Shown: positions 2,265 to 3,818 of the stretch, in pieces
Position numbering within the stretch: position 1 is the first letter of the stretch
How the letters are laid out: each line of letters starts with the position of its first letter
Origin: a virus
Virus record (IMG/VR): IMGVR_UViG_3300032325_000040
Span: 1-21,857 of that record
Length of the DNA stretch: 21,857 bases
Strand: one strand, 5' to 3'
Made by a program: the position numbers and the translations under genes
The notes under the pieces: generated by a model
Databases searched by the model: none
Told to the model about the DNA's origin: nothing
Seen by the model: the letters and a program-made list of their open reading frames with translations, nothing else

Positions 2265-2770
2265 TTCTTCCTCATATCTGCAAGTTTTTCGATTGTTCTG
2301 CCACCAAAATACGCACCCATGATAAGCATTCCCCAGTTACCAAGCAAGGTGACATAGCTTTCATTTGCGTTGTATCCAAAGGCAGACATCATGGCAAACA
2401 AGAAATAGCCTAGAAAGATGGCTATAAGGGACATAGGACGGATATTCTTGGACAGCCAAGAGTCAGATGACATATCCGCTTCCCACCTGTCTGTGATGTT
2501 GTCAGCGTCATTCTGTGCTGCTGCCGCCAAGACTTTCATCTCTTCCAGTTCTAGCTTGGCCTTCTCTATGCCAAGTTCTAGCAAATTCTCTTCATGCTCA
2601 AATTGCAACTGGCGTAGCTTGGAAACATCTTCGGGAGTAGGCGAGTCTGGAATCTTGACTCCAAGAGTTTTCTCTACCACTTCCTTGCCTTTAGCTTGAA
2701 TAGCACTAGATAGAAGGGTAAGACCGTTTTCGGCAAGACTACCTAGCAATGACGCAACTATTGGTATCAC
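2261..2770 (-). CDS. Holin, 3TM (gene-transfer-release type)
   Basis: The 169-aa protein has a weakly hydrophobic N-terminus (MIPIVASLLGSLAENGLTLL). A long charged helix, probably coiled coil, follows (about 50-90), then WLSKNIRPMSLIAIFLGYFL (105-124) and a further membrane segment (about 139-156, GNWGMLIMGAYFGG), ending in Lys/Arg. The SWLSKNIRP entry into the membrane helices is typical of the holin_3TM family (PF11351). The start is GTG at 2770, overlapping the preceding stop (GTGA). The gene sits immediately before the endolysin, as expected for a lysis cassette. Timing of pore formation would set the lysis time. Family identity is from memory but the context supports it well. Confidence 0.82.
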   Translation of the reverse strand: MIPIVASLLGSLAENGLTLLSSAIQAKGKEVVEKTLGVKIPDSPTPEDVSKLRQLQFEHEENLLELGIEKAKLELEEMKVLAAAAQNDADNITDRWEADMSSDSWLSKNIRPMSLIAIFLGYFLFAMMSAFGYNANESYVTLLGNWGMLIMGAYFGGRTIEKLADMRKK

Positions 2771-2937
2771 TTGTCTTCCTTTTCCTGCTTTGCTTGGTTT
2801 ATCAAGCGTTGAACCTGTTCCTGCTGTCGTTTAGTTTCCTTCTTAGCCTCAAGAATGTCAAGATACATGAAGCCCAAGATAGGCAAAAGCAGGGCAAAAA
2901 CTATCACCATGCTGAGAAAAGCTATCAAGAACCCCAT
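2767..2937 (-). CDS. Small single-TM coiled-coil protein of the lysis cluster
   Basis: Starting at ATG 2937 gives 56 aa: an N-terminal membrane helix (GFLIAFLSMVIVFALLLPIL, 2-21) followed by a charged Gln/Glu/Lys-rich coiled-coil tail (about 30-56). I chose this start because GAGGA lies at a good distance upstream and the overlap with the preceding gene is then only 13 bp. A GTG at 3060 would add 41 residues, including a Pro-rich stretch, but would overlap the neighbour by 136 bp. The topology (N-in anchor, coiled coil outside) resembles an inner-membrane spanin or a holin antagonist, but there is no partner lipoprotein with a lipobox nearby, so the function stays open. Its stop overlaps the GTG start of the holin. 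Confidence 0.6.
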   Translation of the reverse strand: MGFLIAFLSMVIVFALLLPILGFMYLDILEAKKETKRQQEQVQRLINQAKQEKEDK

Positions 2938-3464
2938 TTGGTTGTCCTCATTTGCCACAGGGCGAGGAACAGGAGGTGGAGGTATATAGTAACTATCATT
3001 ACCGCTCCGATTATTAGAGCTTTGTCTTGAAGATTGTTTAGCATTTGCTTTCGTTGCCACAACGCTCTCCTGTCCTTGGCCTCTTGCTCTAGCCTATCCT
3101 TTTCCTCTTCTTCTCGTAGTCTCGCATATTCTTCCTCAAACCTTGTCCACACCGCACCCAAGGCAGGGTCTACATGATAGATAAGAAACTCACGCAGTTC
3201 AACAGCTTGTCGCTCTAACTCTATTTGGTTAAAGACATTTTCTAAGGCTTGAGTTTTAAGCGATTTTGTTTTGGGAGGATTACGCTTTTGCTCCTCCGCT
3301 TCCTTCTTTACTTCTTCGTGCGCCTCAAAGAACTGACCTATGTAACCAGATATTTCCTTGGTTATCTTGTGCAGTTCACCACCAGTCTGCTTGATGTCTT
3401 TGTAAAGCGCAACCCCTTGCTTTATCGCCGCAATAGCGCCTAGAGCAAGGGTGAACGGGTCAAT
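2925..3464 (-). CDS. Lysis-region membrane protein, probable ATT start (179 aa)
   Basis: The frame is open from ATT (3464-3462), which directly follows the TAA stop of the upstream gene, to TGA 2925-2927. There is no in-frame ATG or GTG in the first 100 codons. Initiation at ATT gives MDPFTLALGAIAAIKQG, which looks like the N-terminus I recall from related phage proteins (MDPFTLALxA). A Shine-Dalgarno-like GAGGGG lies six bases upstream of that TAA-ATT junction. The protein has an amphipathic helical first half (VALYKDIKQTGGELHKITK), conserved-looking REFLIYHVDPALGAVWTRFE (91-110), a Glu/Arg coiled coil (110-145) and one membrane helix (about 149-170) with a short basic tail. A late TTG at 3161 would leave only 78 aa. 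The function is unknown; the position next to the holin suggests a lysis or envelope role. Confidence 0.7.
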   Translation of the reverse strand: MDPFTLALGAIAAIKQGVALYKDIKQTGGELHKITKEISGYIGQFFEAHEEVKKEAEEQKRNPPKTKSLKTQALENVFNQIELERQAVELREFLIYHVDPALGAVWTRFEEEYARLREEEEKDRLEQEAKDRRALWQRKQMLNNLQDKALIIGAVMIVTIYLHLLFLALWQMRTTKWGS

Positions 3465-3818
3465 TTACAACCCCTCACCTGGGGTCACATAAACCTCTGG
3501 AGTACCAGTTTCAGACACAAAGGTCACGTAAACAGGCGCAGTATTTGTTGATTGTGGGCCAGTAATAACCATGACGGTATCTGGTGGAACAATCACAGAA
3601 TAGCTTGGGGAGCCATTTGCTGGCAATGCTACGTTAGCAGTAGCACTATTGCTGATACGAAGATATACAGGCAAGCCAGCACCACCCGCAGGTTCATGAC
3701 TGACCAACATGTATTGCTGTACAGGGCTGTCTGAGTACAGAGTTAATTGCTGAATAGTTGTAGCAGCATTTAACTTGTACGTCTTGCCCATAGGCTGAAA
3801 AGCAATATTATTTGCCAT
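3465..3818 (-). CDS. Hypothetical beta-rich phage protein, 117 aa
   Basis: The protein begins MANNIAFQPMGKTYKLN and is mostly short beta strands rich in Thr, Val and Pro (for example YSVIVPPDTVMVITG and APVYVTFVSETG). It has no cysteines and no membrane segment. Such small beta-sandwich-like proteins in phage late operons are often minor virion components, but I do not recognise a named family. The start overlaps the preceding gene's stop by one base (TGATG). Its TAA is immediately followed by the ATT proposed as start of the next gene, so the two would be translated by re-initiation. Confidence 0.75.
   Translation of the reverse strand: MANNIAFQPMGKTYKLNAATTIQQLTLYSDSPVQQYMLVSHEPAGGAGLPVYLRISNSATANVALPANGSPSYSVIVPPDTVMVITGPQSTNTAPVYVTFVSETGTPEVYVTPGEGL

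Follow-up and report, generated by a model that had tools for sequence, protein, structure and literature searches.

An AUU start codon appears to be the default in a family of lysis-region membrane protein genes of bacterial viruses

Gene 1, which encodes a membrane protein in the lysis region of a bacterial virus, almost certainly begins at an ATT codon as judged from sequence comparison, and among its closer relatives ATT is the prevailing first codon while ATG is absent. The gene lies in a window of 21,857 nucleotides (the whole stretch of DNA analyzed, i.e., positions 1 to 21,857 of the IMG/VR record IMGVR_UViG_3300032325_000040), which is a phage fragment with genes mostly on the minus strand. 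Plus-strand genes are present at its left end (22–1563), oriented against the structural and lysis genes; the frames 356–1102 and 1099–1563 look glycosyltransferase- and methyltransferase-like by eye.

The first codon of gene 1 in the window and in its relatives

Gene 1 runs on the minus strand from 3464 to 2925 and comprises 179 codons, with the ATT at 3464–3462 and the stop codon at 2927–2925; an earlier sequence-only reading had given the same coordinates and left the strand unstated. The minus strand reads GAGGGG-TTG-TAA-ATT-GAC at the start, i.e., the ATT directly follows the TAA (3467–3465) of an upstream gene for a 117-aa protein (3465–3818, minus strand), which is in the same frame as gene 1. 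The Shine-Dalgarno sequence GAGGGG (3471–3476, minus strand) lies within the last codons of this upstream gene and is separated from the ATT by six bases. Its predicted duplex of -7.6 kcal/mol and its proper distance are as expected for a gene started at AUU. The sequence-only reading had described this arrangement together with the lack of any earlier ATG or GTG, and both descriptions hold. The first in-frame ATG, GTG or TTG of gene 1 is the TTG of codon 102 (3159–3161, minus strand), as it is in five near-identical loci (L002–L006).

A scan of viral contigs yielded 80 relatives with about 60–97% identity to gene 1, of which 59 have ATT, 18 GTG, three ATC and none ATG as the aligned first codon. 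With two more scans and one prophage the set, referred to as clade A, grew to 188 related loci (ATT 157, GTG 20, ATC 11, ATG 0), and this comparison of homologues supports the start proposed from the window sequence; at the level of the 130 distinct sequences the counts are ATT 106, GTG 17, ATC 7 and ATG 0. The reading frame is conserved over its whole length in an alignment of 35 relatives and codons 2–100 are under purifying selection (pN/pS about 0.16–0.22), which together place the gene 1 frame beyond chance. Moreover, nearly all relatives, with L028 and L199 as exceptions, have an in-frame stop 0–24 codons upstream with no ATG, GTG, TTG or CTG in between.

The codon counts indicate that the first codon of clade A is a start codon rather than an isoleucine residue. 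Among 78 non-redundant clade-A rows, which are related and whose counts are not independent, it is ATT in 65, ATC in five and GTG in eight, with neither ATA nor any other valine codon; the remaining isoleucine codons of the same genes are evenly split (378 ATT, 360 ATC, 339 ATA). A third-base G is seen at the first codon only together with a first-base G, i.e., GTG occurs and ATG does not. As invariant four-fold codons often carry a third-position G (148/624), the missing ATG is not a mutational quirk. Neighboring genes of the same loci start with ATG or GTG (nested gene 64 and 2, holin 59 and 3, endolysin 62 and 0, respectively) and never with ATT. No other gene family with a conserved ATT start was found in the flanks up to about 3 kb from gene 1; further families that had been flagged there were dismissed as antisense or overlap shadows.

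More distant relatives with 25–30% identity (117 viral loci in which the start can be seen, together with GenBank MW202462 and MW202484) begin at the same alignment column or one codon earlier, mostly with GTG, in one branch with ATG and in a few cases with ATT, ATA or TTG. On a tree of 159 proteins, which was built with the start codon left out and in which many forks are weakly supported, the start type changed at least 13 times between AUU-type, GTG, ATG and TTG. Clade A comes out as AUU-type and has switched to GTG about three times, while GTG predominates in clade B and in much of clade C. AUU-type starts arise several more times within GTG groups (L205/L211/L212, L208, L259, L244 and L266), with ATT arising independently in clades B and C. 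In L201 (2998–3003) an ATG immediately precedes the ATT (ATG-ATT-GAT) without a Shine-Dalgarno sequence, and this ATG is probably the start; the L119 protein is nearly identical to that of L201, yet starts at GTG.

The upstream gene, the nested gene and the lysis neighborhood

In the relatives the upstream genes belong to several unrelated families (117-aa MANNIAF, 74-aa MEIDPVKYG, 91-aa, phrog_462-like, AVHEAVC and others) and are often in another frame than gene 1. Nevertheless, the upstream stop mostly lies -5 to +10 nt from the gene 1 start in clade A, which is the close stop/start spacing of termination-reinitiation gene pairs. In 13 non-redundant rows the upstream TGA overlaps the start as ATTGA (-5 nt), for example in L007, L008, L041 and L063, where the upstream gene encodes 74–78 aa. 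According to a statement in PMC10666635, such a -5 nt overlap is possible with ATT and impossible with standard starts. The sequence-only reading had suggested re-initiation after the upstream gene, and nearly every clade-A locus has the geometry for it.

The median predicted Shine-Dalgarno pairing is -6.05 kcal/mol for ATT, ATC and ATA starts and -1.6 for GTG starts; on independent tree pairs this trend amounts to about 4:0 and is not significant (sign test, p 0.125). A hairpin predicted at 3450–3479 (minus strand) would pair the Shine-Dalgarno sequence with codons 2–5 and hold UAAAU in its loop. It is unexceptional compared with shuffles (z -1.19) and absent from some relatives. The idea that a conserved RNA structure covers the start was rejected, since among eight loci folded only L042 (z -2.75) was clearly beyond shuffles, and the Shine-Dalgarno region is about equally likely to be unpaired in the ATT and GTG classes.

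Gene 2 (2767–3060, minus strand) starts with GTG inside gene 1 in another frame, overlaps it by 136 nt and encodes a 97-aa one-helix membrane protein; its Shine-Dalgarno sequence AGGAGAG (3065–3071, minus strand) also lies inside gene 1. It is followed on the minus strand by a holin gene (2261–2770; phrog_3427, E 1e-13) and a gene for an endolysin of the peptidase M15 type (1923–2264; phrog_465, E 1e-16; PF13539 above its cut-off). This nested membrane protein gene at the 3′ end of gene 1, the trade-off between Shine-Dalgarno strength and start codon and the repeated switching between GTG and ATT were absent from the sequence-only reading.

The nested gene is conserved in 67 clade-A loci and is present in 64/65 ATT rows and 5/5 ATC rows of this clade as well as in nearly all GTG, ATA and TTG rows outside of it, overlapping the 3′ end of gene 1 by 103–163 nt in another frame. 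Its start in clade A is ATG in 72/74 loci with a median Shine-Dalgarno value of -6.4. Equal Shine-Dalgarno strength combined with opposite start-codon quality of genes 1 and 2 points to unequal yields. The following gene shares no more than about 14 nt with gene 1 in the main ATG branch, and a long overlap is found in 2/24 ATG rows (L306 and L315). The absence of the nested gene among ATG members comes essentially from one branch, which makes the link between start codon and nesting a lead, and the hosts of the main ATG branch may differ in their start rules.

The gene 1 protein is predicted to be all-helical and to have a single transmembrane helix at its C terminus (residues ~149–167). In the AlphaFold2 model (pLDDT 87) the long final helix holds the membrane segment. 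Searches with the protein against Pfam, PHROG and PDB folds gave no informative match, with weak hits to phrog_32327 (E 2e-4, no known function) and DUF4407 (below its cut-off) and a best PDB match at E 0.23 to helix bundles. It is the position of the gene that suggests a role in lysis. This arrangement resembles that of Rz/Rz1 spanin pairs, in which two membrane-associated proteins are encoded beside holin and endolysin and the second gene is nested or overlapping in another frame. However, the membrane helix of the gene 1 protein is C-terminal (149–167 of 179 by hydropathy) and not N-terminal as in spanins, and gene 2 of the window encodes no cysteine, hence no lipobox, in contrast to the outer-membrane lipoprotein of such pairs. 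No sequence match of the pair to spanins was found.

One ATT-start locus, L083, is part of a 275-kb contig of a Comamonadaceae metagenome-assembled genome and carries a tRNA gene immediately past the endolysin gene (L083:5001-7950), suggesting that it is an integrated prophage in a beta-proteobacterium with the tRNA gene as its likely attachment site. No second copy was found in 400 further genomes of the host family. In L083 the nested gene and the holin-like gene are separated by a gene for a 298-aa possible lipoprotein.

A proposed weak, coupled start and the alternatives to it

The reading that we favor and hold to be fairly probable, an estimate that includes the reality of the start itself, is that a coupled start, weak by design, holds the gene 1 protein at a low dose relative to the nested protein. 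Ribosomes finishing the short upstream gene would halt within about 10 nt of the gene 1 start, on top of a strong Shine-Dalgarno sequence, and gene 1 would be begun by coupled or re-initiating translation from the AUU, decoded as formyl-Met. The poor AUU codon would result in a low yield of gene 1, while the nested gene 2 with its strong Shine-Dalgarno sequence and, usually, an AUG would be produced in larger amounts. The start codon would thereby fix the ratio of two lysis-region membrane proteins, and the low ribosome traffic across the gene 2 start site might keep this site accessible. In E. coli reporters ATT is given as about 0.3% as efficient as ATG (Hecht, 2017, as cited in a passage of PMC10666635), a stronger Shine-Dalgarno sequence tends to compensate for suboptimal starts (PMC5622118) and raised IF3 lowers re-initiation (PMC2268962). 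Taken together, this literature makes low, IF3-sensitive and coupled initiation the behaviour to be expected of such a start.

Alternatively, the ATT start might be real and have no regulatory role, a low demand for the protein, the strong Shine-Dalgarno sequence and the coupling making the codon tolerable. The compensation just mentioned is the same pattern as seen here, and this explanation has some chance of being right. However, one substitution would give ATG, and yet not one of the 130 distinct clade-A sequences has it despite the frequent G at third positions; moreover, ATT has arisen separately in clades B and C.

The ATT start might also sense IF3 or the state of the initiation machinery, with the output of gene 1 going up once infection or host stress lowers the amount of IF3 per ribosome, which we regard as improbable. 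The link to IF3, which the sequence-only reading had also proposed, is plausible in biochemical terms, and such sensing would be in line with the discrimination of IF3 against AUU (PMC5472188) and with the findings that raised IF3 blocks M13 propagation and lowers re-initiation in E. coli (PMC5472188; PMC2268962). Furthermore, the genome that bears the L083 prophage encodes IF3, and its infC itself has an apparent ATC start (L200:2041-2043, minus strand) preceded by GAAGGA. However, GTG, which is much less IF3-sensitive than ATT, has replaced it about three times in clade A and prevails in clade B and in a large part of clade C, so that a specific IF3 response is not essential. The more extended proposal that AUU, kept on one lysis-region gene by a widespread phage family, senses the host initiation state (IF3 or re-initiating ribosomes), and that the weak start and the nested gene time or balance lysis, seems unlikely to us to a similar degree.

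Two further explanations deny the start itself. Readthrough of the TAA or a frameshift fusing gene 1 to the upstream protein, the alternative named in the sequence-only reading, draws on the window, where both frames are the same and the TAA alone stands between them; as a mechanism of the family it is refuted by the unrelated upstream families, their differing frames, the in-frame stop 0–24 codons away and the distant relatives that start at this codon with ATG or GTG, which leaves it with hardly any probability. A downstream start at TTG 3161 or another internal codon is what gene callers would choose, and public entries look accordingly: the nearest entry of BFVD, a viral structure library, has 144 aa at 76% identity and would fit a truncated call from the ATG of codon 36, and the GenBank starts of MW202462.1 (L082) and MW202484.1 (L119) lie 7–9 codons downstream of a conserved GTG start. 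Residues 2–100 are conserved at low pN/pS, and not lost upstream of TTG 3161 as the sequence-only reading had allowed for, the first internal standard start ranges from codon 6 to codon 105 among relatives, and ATT recurs in many independent metagenomes, so that an internal start is ruled out for TTG 3161 and, like an assembly error, scarcely credible at all.

Known AUU starts and the meaning of the family

The combination of AUU with a strong Shine-Dalgarno sequence is known from bacteria. In E. coli infC and pcnB (for pcnB: Binns and Masters, 2002, as cited in a passage of PMC13009471) an AUU start limits translation, which in infC is controlled by IF3 (PMC5472188). Both are chromosomal genes, whereas gene 1 encodes a phage membrane protein with a variable upstream gene, a nested gene and GTG as evolutionary alternative. 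In S. aureus, near-cognate starts of cvfC1 (AUU) and ccpN (AUA) are conserved with a strong Shine-Dalgarno sequence and reduced yield, and an extended Shine-Dalgarno sequence and lower yield are described for AUU and AUA starts including cvfC1 and infC (AUA); these genes lie on a Firmicute chromosome and, in the passages of PMC13009471 that describe them, come without coupling to an abutting stop or a nested gene. A literature search on AUU starts in phages found nothing on this phage family. Nivinskas and colleagues reportedly described an internal AUU start in T4 gene 26 in 1992. That product is likewise a phage protein started at AUU, but it is an internal, shorter product of a baseplate gene, while the AUU of gene 1 would be the main start of a gene family. 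A phage family that keeps AUU by default appears to be new.

To our knowledge, no more than a few genes have an established AUU start. Callers limited to ATG, GTG and TTG must truncate proteins that begin in this way, as public entries apparently have been. The family belongs to a large group of environmental bacterial viruses, and with AUU, AUC and GUG alternating among more than 100 natural variants, with unrelated upstream genes and with a nested partner, it offers a natural experiment in which the choice of start codon, coupling and stoichiometry can be studied.
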